This document shows, in pieces, positions 4,589 to 58,639 of a DNA stretch of 64,000 bases (its first letter is position 1; each line of letters starts with the position of its first letter). The position numbers and the translations under genes are program-made. Below the pieces are notes generated by a model that had not been told where the DNA came from, ran no database searches, and saw nothing but the letters and a program-made list of their open reading frames with translations. Source of the stretch: Priapulus caudatus (lineage: Eukaryota; Priapulida; Priapulimorpha; Priapulimorphida; Priapulidae). The stretch spans positions 47,754 through 111,753 of the forward strand of contig NW_014577292.1 in assembly GCF_000485595.1 (NCBI RefSeq). The letters run 5' to 3'.

Positions 4589-4630
4589 CAGAAGTAGATA
4601 ATAGGGGATTCCCTACAATATCTACTTCTG
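4589..4630. mobile_element. 42-bp CARGAG micro-hairpin, 7-bp TSD
   Basis: A short inverted repeat: CAGAAGTAGATA at the left pairs with TATCTACTTCTG at the right around a small AGGGGATTCCCT-type centre. It is flanked by the direct repeat ATTATAT (4582-4588 and 4631-4637). Its stem is close to that of the 29,557 copy. The ends fit the family consensus CARGAGYNNATAATARA. Confidence 0.75.
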
Positions 4631-4870
4631 ATTATATGCATAATATTACAGATTCGGAAAAAACGTCCTGCCCTATCTACCTATGCTACCTCAGTGATAA
4701 TATCAAAATGTCTTTGAACGTACTATACACTCAATACATATATATGCATGTCCCATTTTAATTCACAAATATCTTACCCAATTGAAACAAACAATAATAT
4801 AAGTGCTTCAGTAGAAACAATTGACAATCACACAGGAATAATATATATAACAATACACATATAATAACTA

Positions 4871-4902
4871 CATATATACATATATATATATATATATTAT
4901 AT
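4871..4902. repeat. (TA)n microsatellite
   Basis: An imperfect AT dinucleotide run directly abutting the left end of the fold-back element that follows. Confidence 0.85.
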
Positions 4903-5923
4903 GAGTTAATAAAGACAAAGGAGTTTGACACGTATTTGGTACTGATTTCACTACATTTTGTCGTACGAGTTTGATGTGAATAAAAATACAAATGAATACA
5001 AACATGAGCTTCTTTTGTTCACTGGTCCTTATTCTATCTTCCGGTAGTATTACAAACCGCGTAGCTTCCTTCGTTTTGACATAAATCGTACTTTTGCACG
5101 ACATGGTGTTCACGTTATTTACCGTCGTGTGGAGAGGCCAAGCGGTAAATTCGCATACACAGCAACTGGAAGGAGGCGCGGCAGGGCTTTTAGGCCGTAG
5201 TCTAGCCGAGTGCAGAAAATGCGCTTAGAAATTAAGTTACGTTGCACCCATGCTGGGTTTAAAAATTAAAACTATTTTACATTGAAACTATAGTTAGAAT
5301 GCCTTGTTTTTATGGTTGAATCCCGCAGTTTTCTTAAATAAACGCTGCGCTGGTAAAATATCTGAACGACTTCACCCGCGGAGGAATGATGTGTATGAAT
5401 CTTAGCGAGTAAATTGACGCTCCACCTGATTGCAAGGAGCTAAATATAAATAAGGAGTTATATTTAGCTCCTTGCCTGATTGTAGCTTTTCGCACGAGTT
5501 TTGCATAGCAACCGTTACTATGCAATTGCAGGCAAACGCATGCGTCTACACCTACCTTACTTATCATGACCATCTGTATGTGATAAAAGCGAGAGTTAAA
5601 AAACTTCTTCGGGAGATAACGTGCGGGAGACGCGATCCCTGTCGCGCCTCCTTCCAGTTGCTGTGTATGCGAATTTACGGCTTGACCTCGCCACACGACG
5701 GTAAATAACGTGAAAACCATGTCGTGCAAAAGTACGATTTATGTCAAAACGAAGGAAGCTACGCGGTTTGTAATACTACCGGAAGATAGAATAAGGACCA
5801 GTGAACAAAAGAAGCTCATGTATGTATACATTTGTATTTTTATTCACATCGAACTCGTACGACAAAATGTAGTGAAATCAGTACCAAATACGTGTCAAAC
5901 TCCTTTGTCTTTATTAACTCCTG
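4899..5923. mobile_element. 1-kb fold-back element with ~290-bp arms
   Basis: The left arm (about 4900-5187) and right arm (about 5634-5923) are reverse complements with few differences. The right end reads TTAACTCCTG followed by ATACTAT. The left end is degraded (GAGTTAATAAAG after ATATTATAT), so the 7-bp flanks ATATTAT/ATACTAT match at 6 of 7. The intact end, CAGGAGTTAATAAAG, fits the consensus of the micro-hairpins, so this may be a long member of the same family. Similar open frames occur in both arms (4868-5113 minus, 5710-5976 plus) only because the arms are copies; they do not encode a recognised protein. No transposase is visible. Confidence 0.7.
5433..5474. mobile_element. 42-bp CAAGGAG micro-hairpin, perfect 8-bp TSD
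   Basis: CAAGGAGCTAAATATA pairs perfectly with TATATTTAGCTCCTTG around a loop of about ten bases. The flanks are the perfect direct repeat CCTGATTG (5425-5432 and 5475-5482). It lies in the spacer of the 1-kb fold-back, so it appears to be a later insertion there. Confidence 0.8.
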
Positions 5924-7472
5924 ATACTATGTATATATGTATGTATATATCAATTATGTTATATATATATGAATGAATGAATGAGCAAGAAAGATTGCCT
6001 AACATTTCCACAACCGCGAGTAAACGTGAGTGTTCAAGTGCTACAGGCGAGCAGGCAGGCGCACACATGCGCATACACCCGGTCACTTGTGTAGAGAGAG
6101 AAGATCGGCAGGTTGCCGTGGTCACAGCACTTAATTACCCCACCGGGCGGATTTTCTCACCTCCGCAAAATGACTCGCTGAAAAGAGAAATGCTATAAGC
6201 CTGCAACTAATCCGGCCACACGTTGCACAATGTGCACTGTTGCACAAGGATTACTTGTACAAAGGCTGCACATATTAGCGACAACAATAACATATTCATG
6301 ATGTGAAAACTGATTTCGCGGAGTCGAAAGCTGCGCTGCACTCATCTGCTCCGCAAATATTAGGGGAATTAGTTATTTGCTGGTTGACATGACAACGATT
6401 CACTCTACTCTCCGTCTCATGAAAGTTTCAAGGTGAAAGAGCTTTCAGCCAGAAAATACAGCCATCAGGGGAAAATAATGCTCTCAATATTTCATGCTGC
6501 GCATTCTGAGGGCTGAAAGCACGTTTGTGCCATTATACCCGGCCACACAAACGCTCATTAAATTTTCAGTCTTATTTGCTGATCAACGGGAAGCTACATT
6601 TTGATACGTACTCTATATTTCCCATATGACTCACTCGGTGACAGGGGAAGCAGTCCATGCTGATCCTATGCCATGTCACTAAAACCGAGGCCTGATGATG
6701 TTTTACATATTTAAGGATACTCTCAACCTTTTGCACGGGTATTGCTCTAATGAAGATTAAACGTTTATTGACGAATGAATCGAATCAATCACTTGTTTTA
6801 TTTATAGATGAGATATATCTCTATGCTCAAGGCAAAAAATTTCATAAAATTTCCACCACCTAATTATGTTACCACAAAAATTTTGAATTTTTATGTAAAA
6901 ATGGTATTTTGGATATTTCTCAATTACCAGAAAGAGTGAGAATACAAAATTTTCGCCACATGTTAAGCACAATATGTACCAAAATTGTGCATCAGGATTT
7001 TTATTTAAGTTTCATATTTACCGAAAAAAATTAAAAAAAAACTGCCTAAAATTCAAGTCGCACGTTTGAATTTAAAATTTTTGCGAATAAAGAGACATAA
7101 CTAATAAAATACGGCACTTCCCTGACACACTTTTTTACAGCAATATGTTACCATTAAAACGAGTGTAAAATTAAATTATTCCGAGTTGTAATCACAGAGA
7201 AATATCCATTTATACATCGACTACTAAGTCAGAAATTGGAACGAAGAAATCAGCGTTTTTCTGACGTCAGCCGCGGCTCACTACACATGTACGCGGGCAA
7301 GCAAAACGCTCTGACAGTTCACATGTACCGTTATATGGAGAAATGAGCATGTGCACAGGTGGCACATAGAGTTAGCCATCGAATAAAGTTGAAAATGAAA
7401 AATCGGTAAAAATGTTCCTAAAACCTTGAGAGTATCCTTAAAAGATTGCTATTCGACCACGCGCACAGGCGT
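5924..7472. other. AT-rich non-coding stretch
   Basis: No gene recognised. The part from about 6740 to 7240 is markedly AT-rich with several A-runs and T-runs and no long open frame. Confidence 0.4.
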
Positions 7473-7564
7473 GTACGCACGCACGTAACACACGCACGCA
7501 CGCACGTAAAACACACACACACACACGCACGCACGCACGCACGTAACACACACACACACACACA

Positions 7565-7604
<40 letters not shown>

Positions 7605-7614
7605 CGTAACACAC
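7473..7614. repeat. Compound (ACGC)n/(AC)n microsatellite
   Basis: Alternating blocks of ACGC and AC units, with ACGTAAC interruptions repeated several times. Long open frames through it on both strands (7418-7648 minus, 7446-7661 plus) simply translate the repeat. Confidence 0.95.
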
Positions 7615-9512
7615 GGGCGCGCTCTAAGTGCCGATTTATCACTTCCACCGAATTAAATTAAGATGACACGAAATTAAGCTAGACGAGGACATACCATGGA
7701 ATGGTGAAATAGCGTGTAATAGATCTAACAACGCACAGCGTGTGAGTGCACAACGCAGGCGTAATTCTGTGAGTATCGCTCGCTACAGCAAGGCCTACGG
7801 CAAAATGAGTATTGTACTTCGTTTCTTGCATCACCAGACACTAGAGCATAGCTCAATATCGCAACGTGTTCAAGCTAATATCACACAGCAATGTGCCGTT
7901 ACAGACAGCCAACACCTGCCAGGAGCAGCGCAAAATCTAACCGACATCACCTGGCGAGCAGAATTTCCGTTAAACTGAAATTACGACTTTCAGATAAAGC
8001 CTTTTATTAAAGGTCCTTCCCTTGACAGCTGGGCTATTGTTGATTGTTTTAACCACCACGTCGTGCCCAAATGCCAGGGCAGATGTGCAGGACATTTATG
8101 CCACACACAGCTTCGCTGCAGAATGTTGGACCAGACAAAAGAAAATTGCCTACTAAAATCATCGACAAATGGACTCGTGTCTGGTGTTTCTTCGTACCTA
8201 CGCATCAGCTGTCGGAACGACGAAAAGATTGTCAAAATAGGATAAAACTAGCCACGTGAAAGCTTGCACTGAGCGTCCACATGCATAGAATAATATTTTA
8301 TCAAACGGCTGCATTTGCTATGCCAATACAGGGGCAGTGTTGGGCGGTGGAAATTGCAAGAACTATGGAAGACATTATTTCATTAACCATGCAGGCAAAT
8401 ATTTACAACAAAAGTGTGAGTGCCAGGCTGCTTCCCTGCATCTAGTGCATACCATATGGCGCATTTCGCAGCGTTTAAAAATTAATTCGACCACCTCGCA
8501 GGAAATTGCGCTTGCACGGTAGGTAATGCATGCAAGCACACGCAGCAGTGACAACTATACACCTAGTCTACATACCCGTGCGAACCGTCTACGCTGGCCT
8601 GCTGCCACTATGCTCGCTGTATCCATCCATACCTACACGTATTTTACCATAATGTATTGCACATGTATGAACTTGAGCCACTATCTCGCTGTTTTTCACA
8701 TGATTATAGAGACACGTTTTGCTTTGGCATCTCGACTAATCATTTACCGACGGCACACTAGCGTTTAAACCAAATTATACAGATTCACCACACAACATAA
8801 CACAAAGGAATTCCGGCTACTCATATATCTCACCCTAATCAGGCAAGAAAGGAAAGGACTTCCTCCGCCAGCTTCCACTAAAGGGCAAAGGTAGATTAAA
8901 AGTACTGTTAGCAGAAAATATATTCCACACACACGCTGCTCATACGGACACGTGCTGGAATCCACAAATTAGGGCTTCTCTTGAGCACCTGAGACCTATA
9001 GCTTGATAACACCTGAGAACCGTAGTAATAGTAGCTTCTTAGAAATAATACTGGTCACACATACCACATACAGCAAACGAAATAAACATTTCACTTAATG
9101 TGATCTTTGGTTCGTCACGCGTATTATTAAAAAAAAAATTAAATAGTGACATTATTCGTCGTATTCGGTCTGCGACCAGAAGCCAAACCATTTGAGCCGG
9201 TAACGATGTATCCGGTATAGTATCCGAACATCGACTTCATCCCAGCACTGGAGGTCAACAGATATCGAGGTGAACCACTGATATCTCTAGCCTTTATACC
9301 CACGAAAACTCTTAATGCACGAACTAATTACCATATCCGTCGTTTCTCATAGCTTCCTCAACAGGTGGCCATATGGCCCTACTTCACCGGACGATGAAAT
9401 ACAAGTTACATGCACGTTCAGCTGCACATACTACTACTGTGAGGCTCACTCAAGCTCCCAGTGAGCGAAACCTATGTTCATAATGACAAGAGCGTATTAA
9501 AAAGGAGAGCGT
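7615..9512. other. Non-coding stretch, no gene recognised
   Basis: Short open frames occur on both strands (for example 7742-7978 and 8526-8768) but none resembles a known domain or carries convincing splice context. No repeat structure was noticed. Confidence 0.35.
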
Positions 9513-9768
9513 ACAACGGTGAAATGCTGAAACCATGCTGCAGTATAAGTCGAATTAATAAACTTTGCCCGTTTTATTTTGACGATTCTTTGACAGCCAC
9601 TACGTATCTCGAGTCGGTTTTCGGCGAAAATACCAGATTTTCACCGCTCATTATCTCAGCGTAGGGACATCGTAGGGACAAGCGGTTGGTTTTACATTAT
9701 CAAGGAAGGGCAGCTGAATAATAATACATCAAATAATTATCAAAATAAAACTCGTAAAATGTCTTCTC

Positions 9769-9773
<5 letters not shown>

Positions 9774-9822
<49 letters not shown>

Positions 9823-9838
9823 TCTCTCTCTCTCTCTT
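9774..9838. repeat. (CT)n microsatellite, copy 1
   Basis: CT dinucleotide run with one TGTT interruption. The shorter allele-like version is at 10,237-10,281. Confidence 0.95.
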
Positions 9839-9967
9839 CCCTTCCCTTTTCAATTTTCACCTTCCTATATCTTACGCCATCTTCCCCTTTCTCGTTTCTT
9901 TTTTATACCTGTCTCTTCCTCAGTCCTGCTCCCCCGCTTAACCTCCCCGCATGGCCACTGATAACAG

Positions 9968-9977
9968 NNNNNNNNNN
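9968..9977. other. Assembly gap of ten Ns
   Basis: Ten N characters of probably arbitrary length. The flanks overlap in sequence, so the true gap may be negative. Confidence 0.98.
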
Positions 9978-10232
9978 CAACGGTGAAATGCTGAAACCAT
10001 GCTGCAGTAGAAGTCGAATTAATAAACGTTGCCTGTTTTATTTTGACGATTCTTTGACAGCCACTACGTATCTCGAGACAGTTTTCCGCGAAAATACCAG
10101 ATTTTCACCGCTCATTATCTCAGCGTAGGGACATCGTAGGGACAAGCGGTTGGTTTTACATTATCAAGGAAGGGCAGCTGAATAATAATACATCAAATAA
10201 TTATCAAAATAAAACTCGTAAAATGTCTTCTC

Positions 10233-10236
<4 letters not shown>

Positions 10237-10281
<45 letters not shown>
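10237..10281. repeat. (CT)n microsatellite, copy 2
   Basis: The same CT run as in copy 1 of the duplicated block, but shorter. Confidence 0.95.
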
Positions 10282-10421
10282 TGTTCTTCCCTTGCCTTTT
10301 CAATTTTCACCTTCCTATATCTTACGCCATCTTCCCCTTTCTCGTTTCTTTTTTATACCTGTCTCTTCCTCAGTCCTGCTCCACCGCTTAATCTCCCCGC
10401 ATGGCCACTGATAACAGCACG

Positions 10422-10470
10422 CTGGTAGTATTTTAAATATTTAATACACTCATTACGATCTGACTAATGA
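10422..10470. repeat. Interspersed ~48-bp repeat, copy 1
   Basis: From GCTGGTAGTATTTTAAATAT to GATCTGACTAATG this matches 30,236-30,285 with about three differences. Both copies sit on the same side of a microsatellite-rich block, so this may be the conserved flank of a microsatellite-bearing mobile element. Confidence 0.65.
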
Positions 10471-10755
10471 ACTAACACGATGAATTTGTCATTGAGATGA
10501 GCATCTCCTGCACAGTACACCATTCATCCACTGCTATACACAGTCAACTATTCCATTATTATATACTAGTGTATCTTATATTAATTACCATATACTCATC
10601 AAGAGCGGCCAACACTTGTATTTAACATTAAGTATTATCCTCTCTTGATATCATATACCCGTGTTCAGACGATGTTCAATACCTGTCTGAGCACCACCAA
10701 AAAACATAGCGATTACTAACAGTAACAATACTTGCCTTCGTCACAAGTTAGCAAT

Positions 10756-11049
10756 GCCGATAGGGTCGATGTCCCCCGGTATACCGGAACGTACCCTGGT
10801 AACTATCTAGCTGATATGGTTAGGGTTATTGTTAGGGTTAGGGTTAGAGTTAGGGTTAGGGTTAGGGTTAGGGTTAGGGTTAGGGTTAGGGAGTAGGCGT
10901 AGGCGACTTCCTAGACTCGTTAGTGGAGTAGGCGAGGTAAGGTCAGGCATATTAGATAGTAGTATTTAGTACCAGGGTACGTTCTGGTATACCGGACCGT
11001 ACCCAGGGTACGTTCCGGCACGACCCTGGGGGACATAGACCCTATCAGC
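10756..11049. mobile_element. TIR element with internal TTAGGG array, copy A (9-bp TSD)
   Basis: Ends are GCCGATAGGGTCGATGTCC on the left and the complement of GCTGATAGGGTCTATGTCC on the right. A perfect 9-bp direct repeat, GTTAGCAAT, lies at 10,747-10,755 and 11,050-11,058. The right arm is about 79 bp; the left has lost roughly 35 bp compared with copy B. The interior holds about ten TTAGGG units with a few variants (about 10,819-10,890), then an AGTAGGCGTAGGCGAC segment. No coding capacity. A 9-bp TSD suggests Mutator-like mobilisation, but that is inference. Confidence 0.85.
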
Positions 11050-11682
11050 GTTAGCAATAGCACTACGTAAAAATTACATAATTGACTACGCACGTCCTGG
11101 AAATACGAAGTTACGTATGTTTTACAACGAGCGACAAAAATGGTATCACCAATGACAATATCAGTTTAACGCGTAACTAATAGCGGTTTCAAGGTTTTGC
11201 CGCGCGGATAAACCAACGCATGTATGGTACTCCCCCCCCCCCACTGTCAAATGCCACGGCTTAGTTACATTGACTACCCTACAAGGATTAGTGTGAACAG
11301 ATTACACTGACAGCTGATGGATTTCGGTGCAAGCCAGATGATCATGACTATGCCATCTGCTCATCTAGTTTAGTCATCGCCAGCAGCAGCAGGAGTATCA
11401 CCCGTGATACCAGGCTTCGCACCCACCCACTGACCTTTGTATGGATTACGTTACCAACACTGAGAGACACTCGCCCACAATAGTCCCAAATGACGCGCGA
11501 ATCCTTTCTACTTGGCGCTTACTCGATTTTTTTCTTTCTCCTGCGTGGCATAAAAGAGCCCCGCTGTTCAGTATGTATACAACCTTGCATTTACCTCGTC
11601 TACGGCTGATGCCACTATTCGTGATTCATCATGCTCCATCCAGCCATTTCAAATAACCATTTATTCACTATCCATTTCTTCA

Positions 11683-11722
<40 letters not shown>

Positions 11723-14062
11723 CAGGATATTATATCTATCAAATTCAGTCAATTCCGCGGAACGCACATAGACCCCCCCCCCACGATTTAATGGCCATGA
11801 ATATCACTCCCTTGCCCATATAAAGCGTACAGCATCAACCACCAGCTTCGCTGACAATTACAAGCCTAATATTAGCGCTAAATTAATCAAGTATGATCCG
11901 ATGCTGGTGTGTACCCGCAACAAAGTGCTACTTACCCTGACCAGCAGCCACCTGAGACCACGCCACAATAAATTCATATTGCGCTCATAATTCTTAATTG
12001 GAACTATGGGTAGGAGCAAGCAGATGGTCAATGATATCTTATTTTGGAAGTCACAGATAGTATGCCAGCGGTGTTGAACACTTTAGTTGGACCGACGAAT
12101 TACACAATATTAAATAATTACAATATTTTAGCTTTATTACTGTTCCGTTCAGTTAAATTACATATTCACTATACTAGAAATGCCTATTTTTGCTTTTCAG
12201 TAGCAAACTGAACGACATTTTAATTTCACCAATATTACGTCTATTGGTAAGGCTACGACTGTGGGATTCTCGAATTTTGCATTAAAATGTTGTATGGTCA
12301 CTGAGATGCTTGCCGTTGTTAACATTGTGTATATTACGTTAATTATGTATGAAGTCTACAATTATTGTCTGACAAATTATCAAAAATAAATATTTACCGT
12401 GACTCCAGTATTGTTTGAATTTCTTCTACTCTCAAAATAGCTATAAGTCTGTAAAGGCTAAGCAGACGTATACAGCAGCTACATATGGGCGGTGAGTATT
12501 ACTAACAGACAGTGAAACAAGAGCGCGGATGGAACATTGGATCTGCAATCATCAATCAGTATGGCTGTGCTATGGTTGATGATTCAGCTGTTGTCTCTTG
12601 GGAAAGACCTATAATTTATGTTTACATTGCCCGGCAGTATCGCCGTAGCAAGACACATGTAATTGCTGCATGTAAATACATATATACATAATGCACATAG
12701 TGGCTTGAAGACACGGATGGATGTTTCACCTTAATAGATCTGTCAAGTTATAGAATTATTGTAATAGAATATATATATATAATAGAATAAAGTAATAGTA
12801 GATAGCAGAATGTGAAAGACCCGAAAAGAAAGAGTGAGAAGCTTGCAGAACGCATGCAGTAAAAAGAAAACAGACCTATGTGACCTTTAGTTATTTTTAA
12901 AAAGTGGTGGGGAACATATCTTAGTTATAGGTTGTCAGTAGATTAATGAAAACAAATGGCACAAATTATCACCCAGTTATAAGGTCACAAGGTGCGACAT
13001 GTCACAGCGAATGGGACAAGCGTGGAAGCATGGGTGTGATGCCACGAATCCATCCGGACAGCTTGGATGAGAATTTCAGATTCATGATCAATGCAGACGA
13101 GAAAGACAATAGAATTATGCACGTTAGTCATGCAATCTTAAGTGCAGGTTAGATATATGGGTGAGGGACTACTTTTCAAAACAGAAACACTATCTATAGT
13201 TATTTCGCCGATGACACAGGGGGTATCACATGAATTTTCATCTACCTGTGAATAAGACTGAACTCAATACATTGCTTCTAACACTCGTTCATTCAATGAT
13301 TAGCAGTAATGACACCACGACCGAATTAAAATGCTCACAGTGACTACGTTCCAAACTTATTTAGACCAAGTACTAGGTTCAGATACAGTTCCACATCAAT
13401 CTTTGTTAAACACACGGGCATGAAATCAGTCTACGTGTTGTGAAGAATCTGGTACATAACCTAATTCTGGGCAAAGACATGATGTAAAATGTTGGCAAGC
13501 CATGATAGGTGTAGACAGTTTGATCGAACCCATGAATCAGGGAATTGAGCCACGACTGACAAAACGTAACGAAGCTTTTGGTTAAGATGTAAAACTAGTG
13601 TGCAAACAATCGGATGACAAGTGGTACTATCAATCAGCTAGCCTGCCATGGCTGTGCAACTAAACGTGTAAATAACACGAGTAGGTAGGATTGCAATAAA
13701 TGACCGCTTATTGTAACACTAACAGTGACCAGCCAGCTGAAGGTATGCAACTGAATAGATATATAGTATGCCATAAAATAAGCCATTTGTCCATTAAAAT
13801 AAACATCGGTCTATACTGGCGTACACCTGATTAGACATTGAAACTAGGAAGCGCACTATAGATTGAGCATTATCCTAATCAACAATGTCATAAATTTAGT
13901 GGAAAGGTGCACCTACTCTAGTAATTGAGCACCGGTACAAGCTTGATGTTATGTTATGCAGCAACCGACTAACCAAGAAGGTGGTAACTGACTTCACTCA
14001 AAAAAGCACAACAATTCTGTGAATGTAAATATTGATACCGCAGTGCTTGTGCAGGCTTTATC
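11050..14062. other. Non-coding stretch with small simple repeats
   Basis: Contains a C-run at about 11,232-11,242, another near 11,773-11,781 and a (TA)n run at about 11,689-11,719. A weak inverted repeat (AATCATCAA with TTGATGATT) lies near 12,550-12,590. No gene recognised; the open frame 12,946-13,152 (+) has no family resemblance I can name. Confidence 0.4.
11689..11719. repeat. (TA)n microsatellite
   Basis: Uninterrupted TA dinucleotides ending in TATTATC. Confidence 0.9.
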
Positions 14063-14092
14063 CAGAGCCGTATATAGAGATATACGGCTCTG
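14063..14092. mobile_element. 30-bp CAGAGC micro-hairpin, perfect 8-bp TSD
   Basis: CAGAGCCGTATAT pairs with ATATACGGCTCTG around a loop of only four bases. It is flanked by the perfect direct repeat GCTTTATC (14,055-14,062 and 14,093-14,100). It is the shortest member of the micro-hairpin family found here, essentially all stem. Confidence 0.8.
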
Positions 14093-14114
14093 GCTTTATC
14101 CACATATATATATA

Positions 14115-14169
14115 CGAGAGCTAATAATACATTTATTATTAGCTCTCGAGATTGTATTATTAGCTCTTG
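14115..14169. mobile_element. 55-bp CARGAG micro-hairpin with doubled right arm
   Basis: The left arm CGAGAGCTAATAATAC can pair with ATTATTAGCTCTCG (ending 14,148) or with a second arm GTATTATTAGCTCTTG (ending 14,169). The outer end CTCTTG followed by ATATAAA fits the family. The left flank ATATATA matches the right flank at 6 of 7, weak evidence in AT-rich sequence. The two right arms suggest partial duplication of the stem. Confidence 0.55.
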
Positions 14170-18060: not shown

Positions 18061-18474
18061 CACAGGCATTTGGAACGTCTCAATAAAAAAAAAAAGGTAA
18101 ATAAACACAAAATGTATTTACTACCAGTCTTAATGTTTCTCTACTCTATTTCGCCTATAATCACCTGTAAATGCCGGTCAAATGCTCATCTGCAACACAC
18201 AAGTACACTGCACGCCCGCCCTGTGCACAAACAACATGAATAAGAGAGATTATATTGATCATCTCAAGATTGATGATCTCTCTTATTCATGTTGTTTGTG
18301 CACAGGGCGGGTGTGCGGTGTACTTGTGTGTTGCAGATGAGCATTTGACCGGCATTTACAGGTGATTATAGGCGAAATAGAGTAGAGAAACATTAAGACT
18401 TTGGTACCGTAGTAAATACATTTCGTGTTTATTTACCTTTATTTTATTTTATTGAGACGTTCCAAGTGCCTGTG
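18061..18474. mobile_element. 414-bp near-perfect palindromic element, hAT-like
   Basis: Two arms of about 200 bp are reverse complements with few changes, from CACAGGCATTTGGAACGTC to its mirror at CAAGTGCCTGTG; the centre is near 18,268. The right arm has a short GGTACC-containing segment missing from the left. Flanks CGAGCTAC and GTTGCTAC agree at 5 of 8, compatible with an aged 8-bp TSD. Terminal sequence and structure match the 94-bp element at 18,636. No open frame of note. Confidence 0.75.
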
Positions 18475-18599: not shown

Positions 18600-18787
18600 C
18601 AGGGCCCAATCCTAGTTTAGCACCCCGGATTAGTTCACAGGCACTTGGAACGTCTCAATAAAAAAAAAAGGTAAATAAACACGAAATGTATTTACTACCA
18701 AAGTTATTGAGACGTTCCAAGTGCATGTGGATTAGTTTAGCACATTTGCGAAAATGAAGGTCGGGGTTCCAAACTAGGATTGTGCAT
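18600..18787. mobile_element. Small hAT-like element hosting a nested insertion
   Basis: Left segment CAGGGCCCAATCCTAGTTTA and right segment CCAAACTAGGATTG share inverted AATCCTAGTTT plus a nearby ACCCC. The CAGGGCCC start resembles the TIR of the 22,049 element. The outermost right bases do not match, so the boundary is approximate. The 94-bp element lies inside it. Confidence 0.4.
18636..18729. mobile_element. 94-bp deletion derivative with perfect 8-bp TSD
   Basis: It starts CACAGGCACTTGGAACGTC and ends GACGTTCCAAGTGCATGTG, the same termini as the 414-bp palindrome. Inside, about 70 bp of that element's arm, up to ACTACCAAAG, is joined straight to the opposite terminus. It is flanked by GATTAGTT at 18,628-18,635 and 18,730-18,737, an exact 8-bp TSD, which defines the ends of the family and suggests hAT-type transposition. 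Confidence 0.85.
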
Positions 18788-20129: not shown

Positions 20130-20198
20130 CAGGAGTGTATCATAATAATATTCTATTTACATTCTATTCTATTCAGATTCTATTATTATACACTCCTG
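20130..20198. mobile_element. 69-bp CAGGAG micro-hairpin, 7-bp TSD
   Basis: CAGGAGTGTATCATAATAAT pairs with ATTATTATACACTCCTG (one extra C on the left). The roughly 30-base loop is made of TTCTA-like units. Flanks are ATAATAT at 20,123-20,129 and 20,199-20,205. It is the longest of the small copies. Confidence 0.75.
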
Positions 20199-29556: not shown

Positions 29557-29597
29557 CAGGAGTAGATAATAGAAGATTCTTCTATTATCTACTCCTG
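29557..29597. mobile_element. 41-bp CAGGAG micro-hairpin, 7-bp TSD
   Basis: A perfect palindrome: CAGGAGTAGATAATAGAAGA pairs with its complement almost without a loop. The flank ATGGTAT occurs on both sides (29,550-29,556 and 29,598-29,604). A tiny further palindrome, CAAGAGCTTG, and an ATGGGT follow at 29,605-29,620. It is the best-conserved relative of the 4589 copy. Confidence 0.85.
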
Positions 29598-33332: not shown

Positions 33333-33642
33333 GCTCATATAGGGTCTATGTCCCCCAGGGTACTGCCGGAACGTACCCTGGGTACGGTCCGGTATACCGG
33401 AACGTACCCTGGTCACTATTTGATATGGTTAGGGTTAGGATTAGGGTTGGGGTTAGGGTTAGGGTTAGTGTTAGGGTTAGGGTTTGGGTTAGGGAGTAGG
33501 CGTAGGTGACTCCCTAGACTCGTTAGTGGAGTAGGCGAGGTACGGTCCGGCATATTAGATAGTACCAGGGTACGTTCCGGTATACCGGACCGTACCCAGG
33601 GTACGTTCCGGCAGTACCCCGGGGGACATAGACCCTCTCAGC
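33333..33642. mobile_element. TIR element with internal TTAGGG array, copy B (9-bp TSD)
   Basis: The arms (33,333-33,413 and 33,564-33,642) are about 80-bp inverted repeats. Both carry GGGTCTATGTCCCCC near the end, then repeated GGAACGTACCCTGG blocks. Flanks ATCCCTAGT (33,324-33,332) and ATCACTAGT (33,643-33,651) match at 8 of 9. The core has about ten TTAGGG-like units (about 33,426-33,495), then AGTAGGCGTAGGTGACTCCC. It is fully non-coding and more complete at its left end than copy A. Confidence 0.85.
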
Positions 33643-35671: not shown

Positions 35672-35707
35672 CAGGAGTGAACGAAAACACATTTTTGTTC
35701 ACTACTG
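35672..35707. mobile_element. 36-bp CAGGAG micro-hairpin, perfect 7-bp TSD
   Basis: CAGGAGTGAACGAAAA pairs with TTTTGTTCACTACTG with two mismatches. Flanks are GTCAGAT at 35,665-35,671 and 35,708-35,714. The flanking repeat is not AT-rich, so chance identity is unlikely. Confidence 0.8.
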
Positions 35708-47711: not shown

Positions 47712-47763
47712 TAAGAGCGTATAAAGAAGTAAAGGTACAAGTATCCTTCTTAATACGCTCTTG
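47712..47763. mobile_element. 52-bp CARGAG micro-hairpin, near 7-bp TSD
   Basis: TAAGAGCGTATAAAGAAG pairs with CTTCTTAATACGCTCTTG with few mismatches around a loop of about 16 bases. Flanks ATAGAAT and ATATAAT match at 6 of 7. The right end CTCTTG followed by ATA is identical to the copies at 14,169 and 58,639. Confidence 0.7.
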
Positions 47764-47770: not shown

Positions 47771-49323
47771 GATTGCTATGTGGTTCGACATGTAAACCAC
47801 CGCGTTTACTAGATGAGACGGATATAATAGAGAATAATAGTTTGCCGTAGAACTCGTGGTAGTATTAGGTAGTCTACCTTGCACGCACACGTGCACGCAC
47901 CCACATATAGGTACGCACACAACAAGGACCCAGTTTATGCAACATCATCAGTGTTCTTTCCCGCGCTCTAAAAAGTTATGTTAGGTTTCATTTTCGGTAA
48001 ATTACCACAACATTGATTGTCATGCATGACCAGAAGAGACAAACAGGCGTTTTCCGTACGCGTGGAATATACGACAGCTTCCAGACAAGCAGGTCAGCGC
48101 AGCTAGCAGACGTTGACTGCTCATTTCATACTGCACACAAAACATTAATTAGCTTCACAGAATTTGTGCAGGGCTCGATGCCAGCTGAAATGCATCAAAT
48201 GGCCCAATTAACTTTTCATCAACCGGCCCCTTCTGAGACCATTTAGTAATCTAATTAAAAGCCGCGAAACCTGCGTCTCGGTTTTTTTTATCGAGAAGTT
48301 TGTTCACCGTCATATAGAGCAGGAAGAGCACAAATCTTGTGTTTTTTCTTTGGTGTATATAGGGCAGGGTACTACAAATTACAGTGATATATACATAGGA
48401 AGTTGGGAGGGTCAAGTTTACTTCATAATGGCTAATGTACAGAGGATTACCCAGTGTGATAACACGTGCAGTTTAGTCATTCTTTTAGAATGTAAATCCA
48501 ATTGGAAATCGTGAACGCGAAACCCTAAATATCCATCGTGCAAGGAGTGAATGGAAATTTGATTTTATTCACTCCTGATCGTACATTTGTTGCTTGCAAT
48601 TACGCTAATAACTGCTAAAGAAGACGTTTTGCATATCTATCAACAGAAAACCGGGGTTCAGCGCCTTTGGTCGACATATAGCCATCGAGATGCCTTTTTA
48701 TTATGAATGATGAATTTAAAATGTGCACATTTGTCTTTTACCAAAAAGTATAATTCTATCTACGCAATGACATTCGCAGCAGTAGCAAATATATCGTCAA
48801 TTCTGTGAACGCGAAAGTGGATAAACACTGATATACTGTTAATGAACTTTTGAAGTGCTGTTATATATCATACTAAACATGCACCAATATCTGCTCGGAT
48901 AACGAGAACGTGACAATGAATGCATAAGTCATTTGCTTTGCACAGGAAAGCGGTCGAGAACAAGGACATCTTTAATGCGGTTGCTGATTTGACAAACAGT
49001 GATGGCGCGGATAACAAACATGAATCTTCTCACACATAACTTGACGATGTCGGGAGTTCCAGGAAGGTGATTACAATATCTATTTGAGTACGCACATTTA
49101 TAATGTTATAATTAATAAGAGCGCCAGGTGCAGAATTCCATAATTGAGTGTCTTTGACATATATTATCAAGTGCGCATGTTGACTATGGTGCCAAGTATA
49201 TGGATCAGTTGGTAACAGCTTGCCCCAGACCGACGCATGATATATTGCGACCGTAGATGACTGTGTCATGTATTTGGCACGATCGAGGCACTTTCGAATC
49301 TCAGAATAAAGAGGTATATATAA
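47771..49323. other. Non-coding stretch, no gene recognised
   Basis: Contains one micro-hairpin (listed separately). The 77-codon frame at 48,013-48,246 (+) is unrecognised. Confidence 0.35.
48542..48577. mobile_element. 36-bp CARGAG micro-hairpin, near 7-bp TSD
   Basis: AAGGAGTGAATGGAAAT pairs with ATTTTATTCACTCCTG with a few mismatches. Flanks ATCGTGC (48,535-48,541) and ATCGTAC (48,578-48,584) match at 6 of 7. The first base of the left end has changed from C to A. Confidence 0.7.
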
Positions 49324-49354: not shown

Positions 49355-49355
<1 letters not shown>

Positions 49356-50006
49356 GCAGCTGCATGGTTCTGTAAGCAGCTATACAAAATACATTTGTTT
49401 CTTCGCATTGCATGTGAAGTATAGTAAAAATACGTGTGTTGAATAGTGATGTAACCTATATCTATTGGATATACATGGTTTCGTTTTTTTGAAATATGCC
49501 TATAAACGTGCATGTCTCAATTTCACATGAATGCAGTTCAGTTGCTTCATAATAATATCGTGGACCAAAAAAGATCGATACTACGTCGGGTATATTGTCT
49601 CTGAAGCCTCATATAATTCTCACGGACCAATCGCATTCAATGTATGCATGTTGAATAATAGATATAACAGCTATATCACTATCAGATAGATGAGGAGCTC
49701 GCACATGTCGCAGGGTGAAACTAAAAAAACGCATGTAGTATAGCCACATATCGTCTTTGCTTTGCGTCTTATGTCATTAAGGATAGGTATAGCTGTTATG
49801 CAGTTTACAGATGCAGTGTACTTCTTATCTATCATTACTCGCTCAATTGTAACTTATTGATGGCATGTCCGTGATGTCATCACTCAGGAGCCATCTATAG
49901 GCACATTACCCCTTGGTCCGATTCAACCAAATTTCTACCAATTAGAACAGACCCCGTTACAACAGGCAGTGCTGTTAAATTTGTTCTTCGTTCTATTCCT
50001 GCAAAA

Positions 50007-50672: not shown

Positions 50673-51569
50673 TATTTCGTCGTCCTCGTGCTTCAGGTCA
50701 CTGGTAAAGAGTTCACGCTTTATCCGTGGTTTGTCTGGTCCTACCTATAAAATGCACACTCATTACCGCTGTAAACTGGCCCTGCATAAATGGTCGAATA
50801 CACTTAATGCCGAGCGCCGCTCGTTTGCCGTTGCGAATCCTGAAAATGTGTCTTTTGTCAATTAGTGTACAATTAAGAGGTATTTTCGCCGTCAATATTC
50901 GGGGTAATACCGTGGCGGAGGTTGCTTATGCTAGGCTGCAGGTGTTTCCAGCAGAAAAATATTCATTAGTGAGCTTGTGCGCTTTTCCGCACATGCGACT
51001 GGCTTCTGTTGTGTGACGCTGGGCTGAGGCTTATACAGATTATATCCAAGCAAATACTATCAGCTTATATCTGAAAGTTTATAATAAGCGAAAGTAGATA
51101 CTGCATGCTTCTAACAAGTCGTTACGAACAACACCAATTAAAACCACCGTACCGTACCTTTTATACGTCTGCTTTATTATGGAATTATTCAACGTTACTA
51201 GGATAGAGATAATAAAGGACGATAGCATTATAGTCCAGTCAATATATGAAATTTTTTGGCCTACCTGGAACAAATTGCAACAGAAGGTTTTATTGTTGGA
51301 AATTGTTGATTGGACCCTCCTAAACTTCATATGCAAAATCGGCCAAAATCGGACCACGGAAAATTGACTAATTAGCATAAATCCAAAATGGCCGCCATTT
51401 TCAAGTTTGAGGCTAGTTTGTCCTAGATAGTACAAGAGCTAAGAGCCAAAAATCAGATGAATTAATTGTGCACTTTTGACAAAAGCATGAAAATTGGCAG
51501 TTTAAGATATGTACATTCATATGAGATCGGGTACCCATCTCCATCGGTATGGTATCTGAGCGCCATCTT

Positions 51570-52085
51570 GAATTTCAAAATGGCCACCATCAAAATCCAG
51601 TATCTTACATTTTTCAGCTAATATTCAACATAGAAACAATATTTTGGCATCTAAACCAACATTATCGGGGTCAAGAAACCCATTACAATCAAAACGATTA
51701 TCGGTCGGTAGCCGCCATCATGAATTTCAAAATGGCCACCATCCAAATCTATTAACTTTCATATTTCAGCTAATATTCAAGATAGAAACATGATCTTGGT
51801 GTCTAAACCAACATTATCGGGGTCAAGAAACCCATTACAATCGAAACCATTATCGGTCGGTGGCCGCTATCTTGAATTTCAAAATGGCCGCTATCCAAAT
51901 CTATTATTATTAATATTTCAGCTAATATTCAACATAGAAACATCATCTTGGTGTCTAAACCAACATTATCGGGGTCAAGAAACCTATTACAATCGAAACC
52001 ATCATCGGTCGTTGGCCGCCATCTTGGATTTAAAAATGGCCGCCATTCAAATCCATTATCATTTAATATTTAATAATGCAGCAAT
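51570..52085. repeat. 152-bp tandem repeat, about 3.4 copies
   Basis: Homologous GAATTTCAAAATGGCC starts occur at 51,570, 51,722, 51,874 and 52,026, an exact 152-bp period. Each unit carries AGCTAATATTCAACATAGAA, ACATTATCGGGGTCAAGAAA and TATCGGTCG. The first part of unit 1 lies inside the left arm of the surrounding fold-back. Confidence 0.9.
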
Positions 52086-52189
52086 TTAACCATAAAAAGT
52101 AAACAGAATTACTTGCATTTTGTGAAAAAAGGGTCGAGTAAAAGCATTACGATGTAATTACTTATAAGACGCCTTCACAACGGCGTGTA

Positions 52190-52275
52190 TACAAAATTAT
52201 TACAAATGAATATACAAATATACAAATATACAATATACATAACAATATACAAATATACATATATACAAAGGGATA
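52190..52275. repeat. ATACAA-rich low-complexity stretch
   Basis: Repeated ATACAAAT and ATACAT units in the spacer of the fold-back element. Confidence 0.75.
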
Positions 52276-52980
52276 CAAAGAATTAATCTAGCCTGTAAAA
52301 ACTATTCATACCAGTCTGCATCAGTCATAAGCAAGGTAACACACTTCTGTTGTCTTCAAAATCTTGTTTCTATGTTGAATATTAGCTGAAAAATATAAGA
52401 TAATGGATTTTGATGGTGGCCATTTTTTAATTCAAGATGGCGCCCAGATACCATACCGATGGAGATGGGTACCCGATCTCATATAAATGTACATATCTTA
52501 AACTACCGTTATGCCAATTTTCATGCTTTTGTCAAAATGTGCACAATTAATTCATCTGATTTTTGGCTCTTAGCTCTTGTACTATCTAGGGCAAACTAGC
52601 CTCAAACTTGAAAATGGCGGCCATTTTGGATTTATGCTAATTAGCCAGTTTCCCGTCGTACGATTTTGGCCGATTTTGCATATGAAGTTTAGGAGGGTCC
52701 AATCAACAACTTCCAACTATAAAACATTCTGTTGCAATTTGTTCCGGGTATTTCATATATTGACTGGACTATTAGTTCTTTTTCAGTTCACATGTATTTC
52801 TTTTAGTTTCGATGATAATTATTAAAATGAGTTGCGCGCCCATTATTATACACATACAGATATAATAAAATAAAAAGGCAGACAGTGTATGGCAAATAAA
52901 TACGAGGTATTCATTTAGAACTGCATATGTGCATATGTGCATATGTTAGAGGTGCATATGTGTTAGGAGCTGGCTCGCTG

Positions 52981-53160
52981 CGCTGGCTGGCTGGCTGGCT
53001 AATATCGATCGCACGAACACACGAACACTAGACTGGTACCCGGTCCCACCTCTCGGCTTAGTTACTCGATGGGGGAATCGAGGTGGGAGCGAGTACCAGT
53101 CTAACGCGAACACACGAGAGCGAAAACATAACCTCCTCCAACTCCGTTGGGCGGAGGTAA
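52981..53160 (+). repeat. Retroposon tail with CGAACACA array and terminal hairpin module
   Basis: A short CTGG run, then a CGAACACA-type array (about 53,009-53,028 and 53,104-53,116) interrupted by an inserted hairpin. It then ends GCGAAAACATAACCTCC, a loop, GGCGGAGGTAA (53,120-53,160). The same module ends the repeat at 57,735-57,763, so both are probably tails of one non-LTR retroposon or SINE group, RTE-like by general resemblance. Confidence 0.6.
53029..53103. mobile_element. 75-bp TAGACTGG hairpin inserted in tail array
   Basis: TAGACTGGTACCCGGTCCCA at the left pairs with GGGAGCGAGTACCAGTCTA at the right, with CACCTC/GAGGTG continuing the stem. Flanks ACACGAACAC and ACGCGAACAC match at 9 of 10 but belong to the surrounding array, so the TSD is uncertain. 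Related ends occur at 37,404-37,469. Confidence 0.6.
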
Positions 53161-55558
53161 TTATGGATGCTATTTGAGGAAAAGTCGTTTTTTTCCTTAT
53201 ATATAAACGTACAATAGGCACATTAGGATGTTTGGAATTACACATATTCCATGTATTTACCTAGAATGTAGAACTATCGGGACTGGTGCTATAAATAGCC
53301 TTTACTATTCCCACGGCTTGCCGTTATTATTCAAAACCGCGGTGGGAGGTGACTAATTTAGAGTGGTGTATTTCTGTCAGATAGTATGATCATGATAGTC
53401 ATTTGTATAGTTTGGTTTTACGACCAGCATTTACTTATAGCTCAATTTATTAATTATATGTGGTGTACTGTGATTCATTACGAATTAGCTACGCGGGAAG
53501 ACATATTTATCAGCTATAGGAGCATAAAACACATCTTCACGCATCTGCCTTTTAATAGCATTTTTACTTGTGTCAAAATCTCTGTACTTTATAATTGTAA
53601 CCACCGTCTTACTTGTACAAAAGTACTGATACTATCAACTTTCCTATATGAGCTAGAACGCCCCCTTTTCATAGAATGCTGCTTTATCAAAATAAATACC
53701 ATAAACCACGGCACGGTGCGGTTTCCGAGCGCGTACTATACTATATCTTCTCGCTGTTTGCTTTCACACACCACCACCTTCCCACGCTCTATGTGCACTG
53801 AATCCTTTAGCATCACACGCCTTGTTTTCACCTTGTTCATCTTTGCTCGCCGATGCGCATACTAATTCGCTGATATTGTCATTTTCAAATTCCGCAGACT
53901 TGGGCTGACATGCAAATCATGCGTTAAGTAAACATCCTGTGTACGCGCAGATAGCACCAGAGTAAGCTTGCCGCGATGCTCTCTACAAGGCATCCCTAAA
54001 TTAATCCCAGCGTTTCATACGCGTCTGCCATTGATCCTCGTAAATACTACTATACTGTTGGATGCAATGTGTGCAATGTTTCCGTTCGACTTAAGCCACT
54101 TTCGATAATAGCAGCCGTACCTATTATTGCATCACAACAGGGGCACTTGTATAACATAAGAGGCAACATACGTAAACACATCTCACGCGTGAACAGCTAG
54201 CCGTGAGCCTCCTAGAATGACATGTAGTCAAGTATACTTCTCCCCATGGGCATTTCATAATTCGTTTGCCGCTCGTTTTCCTTTGGGCAACTTTTAATAC
54301 GCGTCGTAAGTCGTAAAATCGTGATGAAATGTACGCACAGTTGGCAACACTACGGTATATAGAGGCTATACCCAACTGTCAGAAAGAAGTAGGGGGAGTA
54401 TCACACCGCATCCTAAACAGAGCACAGCTGCTCACATCTGCACGCGCATTACAGGTGTTACATCATTATTAATTGCTACACACCCGAGGCGAGCAATCAG
54501 GATATAATTTTGCTAATATAATATGTCGGTTTTTATCGTGTTAACTATGTGTACTCAAGTGTACACGCAGTTACGTACAAGTATTAGAGATATGAATGAA
54601 AACGACAGTAGATTATATCAAATATACTTTACCGCTTGTTAAGAATAGATATATGAGTATCGCATATAACTCATTCATGACAATGTGTAGCGATATATTA
54701 TTCCCTAGTCATAATAAAAGAAATATGAAGAATTCCCGACAATCGTGCGATTCTGATGACAAAACTCGACAAAACACGTGTTCTCTATCAAAACTGATAC
54801 GCATGCCTTTAACACTATCTACATTTCCCTCTAATTGTTTACGCCTGCTAATCACATTACACGATTCCTTCGATTTATAGAATTTGTAAAAATTAAAAGC
54901 TTATTAAATATATTAATAAATAATGTACTCGGGCCCATGCCTGAAGCGTCTGGACAGATGAACAGGTGTGTCGTAATAGAAGTGCTATACTCGTCAACTA
55001 AATGTAGCTGAACACGAATTAGGAAACAAAACTTAGCTGTGTAAATGTGTGCCTGTGCGTGTGCGTGTGTGCGTATGTGCATGAATAACCTAAGCTAATA
55101 CACAAGCATTCGTGTAACACCTCGCTTTCTGGGGAGCGGAAGTAACCTAATACTTACAAGGGGGATGTGATTCAGCCAAGGGGTTTTCTGGGATAATGCC
55201 CAAATGTGTGTTTGTAAAATAAGCAGCCAATGTAATCACATTATTATGTATAACTATTATATGAGTAGATATATATTTGTATATCCAAAGCATGTATTCA
55301 ACACAGCGCATTATAAACAGGGGGAAAACAAATAACCCACAACTACCGTTGCAAATGACGACTGGTCTATCCCCTTCACTGTGTTACTACAGGCGTATAT
55401 ACACGCATCTTCCATCAACAAAGTCTTAAGCATGACCCCATCTTTATCGCACTATGCCAGTATCCTCCCAGCGTAGGTAGTACATGCTTCATTTGCCGCA
55501 CATTGCACGTGCATGCCGCTTTCATCAAATCATGCTATAATTATAGCACTGCGAGGTT
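53161..55558. other. AT-rich stretch with one unassigned open frame
   Basis: The open frame 53,386-53,865 (+, 159 codons) is long for AT-rich DNA but resembles no family I know. It has several hydrophobic stretches and no Kozak-like or splice evidence I trust. The rest shows nothing. Confidence 0.25.
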
Positions 55559-55733
55559 CTTATTTCTTATTTCGTATTCTATCTATTCTCATTCTGTTTC
55601 TATTCTATTCTATTTTTTTCTATTTTGCCAATTTTTTTTCTTCTATTTTATCAATTCCATTCTTTTTCCATTCTATTCTATTCTATATTCTTTTTCAATT
55701 CTATTATTATTCTTAGTTCTTATATATTTATTT
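55559..55733. repeat. TTCTA/TTTCTATT pyrimidine-rich low-complexity tract
   Basis: Irregular TTCTA, TTCTATTC and T-run units, strongly pyrimidine-biased on the plus strand. Open frames here are Phe/Ser/Ile-rich repeat products. Confidence 0.9.
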
Positions 55734-56732
55734 TTAGCGTTCGTTGGCAAGGAATTCATCAACTACGCATACGTAATGAACGTAACTGCGATCGACATCA
55801 CGTAAAGATAATCAGGTTTCAACATGGCATGCTGTCCGCAACAACAGGCACGTCAATAAACTAGAATACGTGGAGCAAATAGCTGCACGTATAGCCGAAT
55901 ACAGGCAGCTGTACATTTTTATTAAATTCTAAGAACCTCGTGGCTTCTCACAGACAACTAGAACCTATAGCAATATAGCTGCTGTTATGGTTGCTGTTAT
56001 ATGGTTACTGTCGAGTTGTCTGGATTACCACACTGCTGCTAAAACTAATACAACATAGCAAACCATAACGACGAGCTTTGCGACTATTTGGATACGTACA
56101 ACCTGGCATAAAAGCGATACAAACCTTGCTACGGATTGAAAAGCAGAAATGGAGAGGTGGCTTCGTTCACTTTACTCGTCAGCTCTGGGAACGGTGTGGG
56201 GTTAAATGCACGCATCTGCAACATACTACAGAGCATTGTAGACTAGGCAAGGGAAGGGGAAACTACACGGCCATAGCTGGCTATTACATTGATCCGCGTG
56301 GCAGTGTAACTGTAGATGGCTTCCTGAATTGGTCGCTAGTGCTGGCCGTGCATGCATTTCCGTGTGCTTGCAGCCAGTTTAATAGTCTCGAGATGCCGTC
56401 TAAACGCAAAAACACCGGCCTGCAGTAGCATGTGTCTGTATCTACTTATTTACTTTATTTTCGAAATTTATCCCCGAATGAGAGGTATATCTCTTGAAAA
56501 TGTATTCGCGATTTTTAAAATTTTTACCCGATACGAAGACGTTCTGCAGCGTTTCCTCTTGTTCTGATTGCACCTCGATAATCATGTGTCATGCAAAATG
56601 TCTGTGCGATTACGAAAACAAATACGAACCCGTGCGTTTGCTAGTTATTTTGAGCTTGTAGCGTTATATTACACAACATTATCTCTCCTCTCCCTATGAG
56701 GTAAACATAGCAGAAGGGAAGCAGCGGAGAGC
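55734..56732. other. Non-coding stretch, no gene recognised
   Basis: The 116-codon frame at 56,078-56,428 (+) is unrecognised. No repeat structure seen. Confidence 0.3.
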
Positions 56733-56775
56733 TAGAGAGAGCGAGAGAGAGAGAGAGAGAAAGAGAGAAAGAGAG
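56733..56775. repeat. (GA)n microsatellite
   Basis: GA dinucleotides with GAAA interruptions. Confidence 0.9.
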
Positions 56776-57439
56776 CCATGTGGGCAGACATACCGCCAGG
56801 TGTCACCTGAGCTGGCATGTGCTAGACAGCCAATATCGCACCGACTTATGCACACAACACTTCGCTAGAGAAGACGAGACCACACAGCTGCCCGCCAGAT
56901 GGTAGCAAATCACTGCTGCACAGAAGCAGGGGACATTGGACACCTTTGGAAAAACTTGTGTTTTTTTCGCGCAAAAACAGTGTACTGTTTCGCAGCATGT
57001 GCAGCTAGGACTGATGCTGCGATAAGTGGAGACAAATGTGGCAGTGTTACTAGGCGGGAGGCCATGGTAAAGACGCGGGTGCCTGATGCCACATGGCTGG
57101 CCACTGGGGGTGTGTGATTTGACAAGTCGGTCCTTTCCCAGTTTTCCCACCATGACCAGAGCGTAGGCCCATGTGTCGGACAGTCAACGCAAGCCACGTA
57201 TCAAAACAAGACGGACGTAACACTACGCGCACATGCGTCCTCATAATTATAGTGATCACCATAGTTATCATCGGGCCAGCATTGTACTAATAATTTGTGC
57301 TAATTAGGCACTCGCGTGAAATCAGAGCATTTTCAGGCTATAATGACACTCGCTTGATAAGCGCTCCATGTAAACGCATCACAAACAAGAGCAATCGGAG
57401 ATAGCAAACCTCCGCCACAGCGTAACAGTCCCCCCATCT
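56776..57439. other. Non-coding stretch, no gene recognised
   Basis: Opposing open frames (56,803-57,153 minus; 56,899-57,117 plus) with no recognisable domain. Confidence 0.3.
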
Positions 57440-57765
57440 TGCTGGTACACCCAATATATGACTTTAATGGAATTTTCAGAAATTCGAAAAAAGGTCCAGG
57501 ATTGTTTTGGATGAGTTTTGAATGCGTCCGAAGTCTTCCCCACAAAAAGAAAAAAAGAAAAAGAAAATCCGGATCCGGATCAGCACCAAAATCTAATAGA
57601 TTGCTTGTTGGCCCAAGACCAAGTCGTCCAAAAAAATTCATCAAAATCCGTCCGTAACTTATGGGATATCCTGTTGACAGACAAACCAACAAACCAACAA
57701 ACCAACAAACCAACAAACCAACAAACTAACAGGGGCGAAAACATAACCTCCTTGGCGGAGGTAGC
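57440..57765 (+). repeat. Retroposon 3' tail with 8-bp array and hairpin module
   Basis: Non-coding sequence with phrases such as GGATCCGGATCAGCACCAAA and TTCATCAAAATCCGTCCGTA, then an AAACCAAC array (about 57,679-57,730), then GCGAAAACATAACCTCCTTG and GGCGGAGGTA. CCTCC pairs with GGAGG across the short loop. This layout resembles the 3' ends of RTE-type LINEs or SINEs using them, from general knowledge. No reverse transcriptase frame is present, so it is truncated or a SINE. Confidence 0.65.
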
Positions 57766-57977
57766 AATCACAAAACATGCAGGCATCCACGAGTAGAGCC
57801 TACATCGAACATAGAGCCAATACCAATTACGCAAAATGAGCAGTTGGCGACAGTAAAATTCGCGAGCATACAGAATTCTTGAGATAATTCGTACAGCACG
57901 AAACATATACACGCGCAATACGCAACGCAGATCGACACGTAAAAATACATCAAACAGAACCGTCCATATTCGCCGTA

Positions 57978-58172
57978 CACACGTACGCATGCACGAACGC
58001 ACGTACGCACGAACGCACGTACGCACGAACGCACGTACGCACGCACGCGCGTACGAACGCAAGCACGCACGCACGCACGCATGCACGCACACATGCATGT
58101 ACGAACGCAGGCACGCACGCACGCACGCATGTACAAACGCATGTACGCACTACGAACGCCTGCATGCGCACA

Positions 58173-58207
<35 letters not shown>

Positions 58208-58209
58208 GC
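57978..58209. repeat. (ACGC)n/(ACGA)n-type alternating tract
   Basis: Imperfect ACGC, GTACGCAC and GAACGCAC units over about 230 bp. The 93-180 codon frames on the minus strand and 84-119 codon frames on the plus strand through it are repeat products. Confidence 0.95.
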
Positions 58210-58599
58210 ATCGTTGCCGCCAATTCCCCACGTGAATCGTGTTTCTATGACATTCGTAATGCAGGCCATCGTTCGCCGATGCGCGCGTGCGTGCGTAGTG
58301 GTTGGCTGGCTGGCAACTCGCTATATATCAACTGAAGCTTGTGAATGAAGCGAGCCAGCTGCGGCCAGCTGGCGCATCTGGACCAGCGCGGGCTAATGAA
58401 GATTGTTAGCTCTGCACACAAGATGAGCACAACCATCGCCGAGCATCCCGCGGATATCGCCTGCATTAAATACCAAGCAATGCCACGGCGGCGGTGCGCA
58501 ATCTCGCCTGCTCCGCCATTACTATAGCCGCGGCCGAGCGTCGCAGTTACGACCGCAGTCGCGCGGCGGCAAAAGTTATATACACGAGTTATATACAAA

Positions 58600-58639
58600 C
58601 AAGAGCCCACAATAGAAAATTATCTATTATGGACTCTTG
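58600..58639. mobile_element. 40-bp CAAGAG micro-hairpin, perfect 7-bp TSD
   Basis: CAAGAGCCCACAATAGA pairs with TCTATTATGGACTCTTG with two mismatches. Flanks are ATACAAA at 58,593-58,599 and 58,640-58,646. The end CTCTTG followed by ATA matches the other CAAGAG members. Confidence 0.85.

Follow-up and report, generated by a model that had tools for sequence, protein, structure and literature searches.

Short hairpins scattered through the Priapulus caudatus genome are probably excision scars of a P-like transposon

A 64,000-nt stretch of the Priapulus caudatus genome (contig NW_014577292.1, positions 47,754 to 111,753; hereafter the window) carries ten small hairpins flanked by short direct repeats. 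The hairpins form a real and abundant family. We propose, at a probability of about 0.65, that they are the end-joining scars of a P-like transposon that cuts approximately 20 nt inside its own ends. In this model the transposon would insert at an AT-rich palindromic target, duplicating 7 (sometimes 8) bp. The transposase would then excise the element but leave approximately 20 nt of both terminal inverted repeats behind on the flanks. End joining would fuse these remnants, either directly or across one or two bases, or else by way of filler templated on the remnants themselves. The resulting hairpin, lacking an interior, would have a copy of the target at each border and, between these, no more than 20 nt from either end, the second in reverse, with the filler in the middle. 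The two arms of a hairpin match each other and differ from those of other hairpins, presumably because each pair derives from the two ends of a single excised transposon and did not co-evolve.

An earlier sequence-only reading of the window had described ten stem-loops, and all ten were present at the positions claimed. Exact 7-bp repeats were confirmed beside 4589, 20130, 29557, 35672 and 58600, exact 8-bp repeats beside 5433 and 14063, and a 6/7 match at 47712, 48542 and 14115. At the last of these the hairpin itself stands, but its extent had to be revised. The 34-bp hairpin originally given (14115-14148) is the inner part of a 55-bp element and has no target duplication, whereas the outer element (14115-14169) has the 6/7 repeat. 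The centre of this element includes a 15-nt copy of its own left arm. The ten hairpins, none of which is assigned to a strand, are as follows.

4589..4630, unstranded, hairpin; 7-bp duplication ATTATAT at 4582-4588 and 4631-4637
5433..5474, unstranded, hairpin of the sister end type CAAGGAGC; 17-nt arms; 8-bp duplication CCTGATTG
14063..14092, unstranded, hairpin of end type CAGAGCC; 13-nt arms; 8-bp duplication GCTTTATC
14115..14169, unstranded, hairpin; 17-nt outer arms (1 mismatch), 21-nt centre; duplication ATATATA/ATATAAA (6/7)
20130..20198, unstranded, hairpin; 18-nt arms (1 mismatch), 33-nt centre; 7-bp duplication ATAATAT
29557..29597, unstranded, hairpin; 20-nt arms and one unpaired T; 7-bp duplication ATGGTAT
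35672..35707, unstranded, hairpin; 16-nt arms (2 mismatches); 7-bp duplication GTCAGAT
47712..47763, unstranded, hairpin; 18-nt arms (2 mismatches), 16-nt centre; duplication ATAGAAT/ATATAAT (6/7)
48542..48577, unstranded, hairpin; arms similar to those of 35672 and total length equal; duplication ATCGTGC/ATCGTAC (6/7)
58600..58639, unstranded, hairpin; 17-nt arms (2 mismatches), 6-nt centre; 7-bp duplication ATACAAA

It had also been claimed that the flanking 7-mers were far beyond chance, and this was borne out: 5/10 loci have exact 7-mers (7/10 when the 8-mers are included), compared with chance rates at matched spans of 0.00025 per locus (local positions) and 0.001 per locus (own flanks, random offsets). 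A scan of the window that made no use of the end motif (spans of 26-120, inverted ends matching at least 12/14, duplication k=7 or k=8) returned five matches at k=7, all of them members of the family, and four at k=8, two of which belong to the family while the other two lie in foldback elements at 18.1-18.7 kb. Thirty dinucleotide shuffles of the window (2-kb blocks) gave a single match at k=7 and none at k=8, placing the family well above the shuffled controls. Across the 385-Mb assembly (2,952 contigs, including the window) the exact arm CAGGAGTNNATAATA was found 4,425 times (2194+2231) versus 7 times (1+6) for the reversed pattern.

Twenty stretches of 10 kb (L009-L028, 200 kb), lying around listed exact-arm places and biased toward long pairs, yielded together with the window 59 candidates, of which 42 have exact 7-bp and 4 exact 8-bp duplications. 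Since the filter demanded a duplication of 6/7 or 7/8 and an end motif with at most one mismatch, 42/59 is a biased rate. The 59 omit the window hairpins at 5433 and 14063, and include two nested or composite cases (L016:1900-2163 and L019:5872-6576) and, at L010:2953-3821, the span separating two duplicated scars. Later samples comprised 32 short stretches at other listed exact-arm places and two 2-kb stretches. Among 34 places picked by one exact arm, a paired element with an exact 7- or 8-bp duplication was found at 14, a pair one mismatch off at 9 and a pair matching at only 4/7 at 3. One place (L061) held a 28-bp hairpin without duplication, adjoined by an exact pair that forms a separate hairpin, and 7 had no pair; long-element ends account for two of the 7 and a one-armed copy for another (L063). 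The pairing score at these places also used the duplication, and the rates therefore carry selection.

The 38 exact 7-bp duplications gave the target consensus ATAWTAT, with T at position 2 in 35/38 and A at position 6 in 32/38. The palindrome extends past the duplication, with a weaker TA outside on either side. Both the palindromic target motif centred on the duplication, as in the P superfamily, and the 7-8 bp target duplication on both sides, as in P footprints, were seen. As first suggested, a cut-and-paste transposon family with CARGAGY ends produced the flanking repeats as its target-site duplications. The 8-bp duplications of the sister types CAAGGAGC and CAGAGCC do not fit ATAWTAT, and a second CAAGGAGC-type hairpin (L017:882-921) has the 8-bp duplication CTTCTACG; these types may represent a related transposon whose stagger at the target differs. 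The 5433 hairpin is itself enclosed by a TTAA-flanked inverted-repeat structure of ~1 kb (4910-5913; arms ~4853-5186 and 5637-5970). At L028:2079-2225 three hairpins stand in series with ATATTAT between each; there and at L016:1191-1279, serial hairpins at one repeated 7-bp target indicate that existing duplications were hit again.

The centres of the hairpins resemble repair junctions. In 20 elements, 7-mers of the element's own arms cover 481 of 1335 nt of centre versus 141 expected from dinucleotide shuffles, with L012 alone contributing 153 of the 481 templated nt. Own-arm templating reached P<0.01 in 9/20 centres, with arm pieces in both orientations. The centre at L012:4940 is a run of ~21-bp repeats built from arm pieces, and that of L060 consists of repeated partial copies of one arm. 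For one end type, the 21 rows of the junction list contain GGGAATTCCC five times, GGGAATCCC twice and GGAATTCCC, GGGACCCCC and GGGTCCC once each, the other rows being longer patchworks or having no clear partner. Variable junctions with templated inserts, a property of P footprints, are thus found in both the centres and the junction spectrum. When centres at unrelated sites were compared (elements of 36-300 bp with centres of at least 6 nt, from the 59 candidates), only a 40-mer was shared. The next best filler identity, among the best 14 rows, was 0.73, and two look-alike pairs of centres were local duplications. Some copies are trimmed on one side: at L062 one arm is reduced to 6 nt with an exact 7-bp duplication, at L063 one arm is absent with an exact 8-bp duplication, and at L027:5423 one arm measures 10 nt and the duplication lies inside a TA repeat.

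The arms also have a length limit. Perfect arm identity did not exceed 20 nt in any of the 83 elements shorter than 300 bp. In ten of them, all perfect palindromes, the element's length itself sets the maximum, which leaves 73 as the test of the limit; 12 of the 73 reach 18-20 nt. The 83 include local duplicates and pairs with poor duplications, and unbroken identity is below 13 nt in 45/83. A 17-nt limit, suggested by the window only, was abandoned when the larger sample gave 20 nt. The search for a longer transposon with the ends of the hairpins, another suggestion of the sequence-only reading, found elements of 398-828 bp that share the 20-nt ends, mostly have 7- or 8-bp duplications, and have inverted repeats that extend further.

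L010:4815-5589, long element, 775 bp; duplication ATTTCAT; largely inverted repeat, perfect for 42 nt
L009:4422-4819, long element, 398 bp; ATACGTAT on the left, ATACGTAT on the right after 7 extra bases
L021:6117-6925, long element, 809 bp; ATACGTAT at both sides
L076:34-803, long element, 770 bp; ATATCAT
L077:34-861, long element, 828 bp; within a TA repeat
L037:1806-2500, long element of a second end type, 695 bp; missing at the paralogous locus L038

In the long elements the left arm reads GGGAAGG (L009, L010 and L076), AGGAAGG (L077) or GGGAGG (L021), and past about nt 20 these elements continue as GGAGTGTGAC or GAGTATGAC with small variants, a continuation seen in 0/16 GGGAA-type hairpin arms. 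In these 16 arms, from 12 hairpins, the bases that follow GGGAA (nt 20) are TT in 11, TC in 3, CC in 1, CA in 1 and GG in none. The variable centres, the fillers made of arm pieces, the trimmed or missing arms and the longer elements with the same ends together fit excision scars better than insertion as units. The sequence-only reading had taken the hairpins for miniature elements, a view that is only partly supported. Insertion of the hairpins as units is the less well supported part, and is least unlikely for the 40-bp perfect palindrome, which recurs with an identical centre. A P-type cut scheme with a 20-nt tail would explain why the arms stop at 20 nt, why junctions vary, where the fillers come from and how one-armed copies arise.

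Empty sites were found as well. The hairpins L019:5872 and L019:7094 are both missing from a neighbouring paralogous copy, which holds a single target. This locus contains two diverged copies side by side (~2400-4090 and 5870-7330), with some hairpins common to both and two in one only; the arrangement may reflect tandem duplication, or the assembly may have placed two haplotypes one after the other.

The known system to which the hairpins come closest is the Drosophila P element. P transposase is described as making its 5'-strand cut within the inverted repeat, at 17 bp (PMC7776569), donor ends as retaining 17-nt 3' tails (PMC2895639), and repaired junctions as often carrying templated inserts, in part dependent on polymerase theta (PMC2895639). 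The hairpins are like these footprints (PMC2895639, Table 1) in their target duplication, their inverted-repeat remnant of bounded length, their short or templated filler and their mirror image, as well as in their trimmed products, which here are one-sided only (L062, L063 and L027). They are unlike them in that the remnant is limited to ~20 nt compared with 17 nt in P, that the duplication is 7 bp (sometimes 8 bp) compared with 8 bp, that fillers reach ~200 nt, and that they are a natural genomic population and not the product of a laboratory assay. Galileo, a member of the P superfamily, is described as having 7- or 8-bp duplications and the palindromic target GTATTAC (PMC4168063). The present family shares with it the 7-bp duplications with a minority of 8, an AT-rich palindromic target extending beyond the duplication (ATAWTAT here) and long foldback-like inverted repeats, here in the long elements. 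Unlike in Galileo, no transposase is linked to the family, and most of the copies found measure 30-130 bp. Miniature inverted-repeat transposable elements (MITEs) are likewise short, with inverted ends, target duplications and high copy number, but in the copies compared at unrelated sites here no interior is common save the 40-mer, and the centres resemble junctions. In the literature searched, which covered subscription papers only in part, we found no genome-wide hairpin family read as excision scars. Among the superfamilies named by the sequence-only reading (P, Dada and hAT), P is the best supported, and P-type transposases are present in the genome. We infer that cut and repair caused the hairpins, as well as the polarity of the overhangs and the P-superfamily identity of the transposase.

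Several observations weigh against excision by a P-like transposase. Five of the 20 centres, including those of the window hairpins at 20130 and 47712, have no own-arm 7-mers, and the 40-bp perfect palindrome occurs with an identical centre at 5/21 rows of its end type. When mismatches are allowed, five hairpin arms reach 21-26 nt. Judged by frame length, the five GGGAA-type long elements look non-autonomous (longest stop-free run 63-200 amino acids), and long elements were found for two end types only. A scan of 309 kb for segments of 6-33 nt bounded by CARG and CYTG and lying between exact 7-bp duplications revealed no two-sided short scar below 30 nt. Its four matches were all 30-32 nt, and seven control end pairs gave 0, 0, 1, 0, 0, 0 and 4. 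Drosophila junctions often lose most of both ends, whereas two-sided short products were not found in these 309 kb. Finally, no transposase was linked to the hairpin ends at the 14 places in the genome that match the P-element helix-turn-helix model, each viewed over ~3 kb with ~1.5 kb around, where a longer element would be missed. The only P-type loci with family ends within this range are L037/L041, where the 695-bp insertion adjoins the gene. Within the same range the P-transposase loci thus yielded no source of the hairpin ends, and homology breaks between P copies did not resemble the ends of an element. The extended P locus L043 has no family ends, nor inverted ends with a target duplication around it; this locus (G000:C1414, minus strand) encodes a P-type transposase with an 827-aa open frame.

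It is rather unlikely that a transposon from a different superfamily, be it Dada, hAT-like or undescribed, left the scars through a comparably long stagger, a reading that overlaps with the P-like one. That no transposase is tied to the hairpin ends would be in keeping with this, and hAT elements have the target motif nTnnnnAn, which the T at position 2 and its mirrored A in the duplication recall. However, hAT excision leaves a few nucleotides on the flanks and not 20 nt of each end. hAT itself, with its 8-bp duplication and short footprints, fits poorly: the duplications are mostly of 7 bp, and up to 20 nt of both ends are kept. The long internal stagger is, moreover, described for P (PMC7776569).

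It is unlikely that palindromes of 30-60 bp were themselves moved in trans, each hairpin being an insertion. The recurrence of the identical 40-mer with differing duplications speaks for such movement, as does the lack of two-sided trimmed copies below 30 nt, as if working ends were required. Presence and absence in the paralogues would also need one step, where scars need two. On the other hand, centres are specific to the copy and often self-templated, trimmed and one-armed copies keep both target copies, and the 20-nt limit coincides with the part common to the longer elements. P transposase also binds internal sites (PMC7776569), which are presumably missing from such small hairpins. That at least the 40-bp palindrome is mobile as it is, as two 20-nt ends back to back without interior, moved in trans, is equally doubtful; mobile hairpins could be made from excision scars that regained mobility. 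The one further alternative, template switching during replication or chance palindromes in AT-rich DNA, is highly improbable: the hairpins are palindromic and AT-rich with centres partly copied from nearby sequence, but they have a common end motif genome-wide, exact 7- or 8-bp duplications with a target consensus, and longer relatives with the same ends, and chance was rejected since the shuffled windows were nearly devoid of comparable structures. An RNA family (none at curated scores) and a tRNA (none found) were rejected as identities of the hairpins, and the gapped hairpin pattern had no match in the viral contigs scanned.

Other repeats occur in the window. Two foldback elements (18061-18474 and 18636-18729) have common ends CACAGGCAYTTGGAACGTCTCAATAAA, the smaller with the exact 8-bp duplication GATTAGTT, and the sequence of L040 matches both. 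Inverted repeats at 51281-52731 surround a 152-bp tandem repeat (51561-52071), and interstitial GGTTAG arrays (TTAGGG-type telomere unit) lie at 10818-10891 and 33427-33494. A fragment of a reverse transcriptase of the long interspersed nuclear element (LINE) type lies at 60251-60676 (PF00078, E 1.6e-11), the closest among the matches listed having 83% identity over 74%.

The genome is estimated to hold 15,000-60,000 elements, the lower figure scaling the 4,425 exact arms by the share of window arms that match exactly (3/20) and the upper extrapolating from 10 per 64 kb. If the hairpins are excision scars, they would constitute a natural library of excision repair junctions with the donor sites marked. 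Germline end joining, whether blunt, by microhomology or templated, would then be readable at scale without experiment, and the position at which a transposase cuts would be obtainable from the genome sequence alone. Annotators would also be cautioned against classing such hairpins as MITEs. The hairpin family would also permit a direct test of the minimum size of a DNA transposon. If instead the 40-mer is mobile, it would rank with the smallest DNA transposons in eukaryotes.

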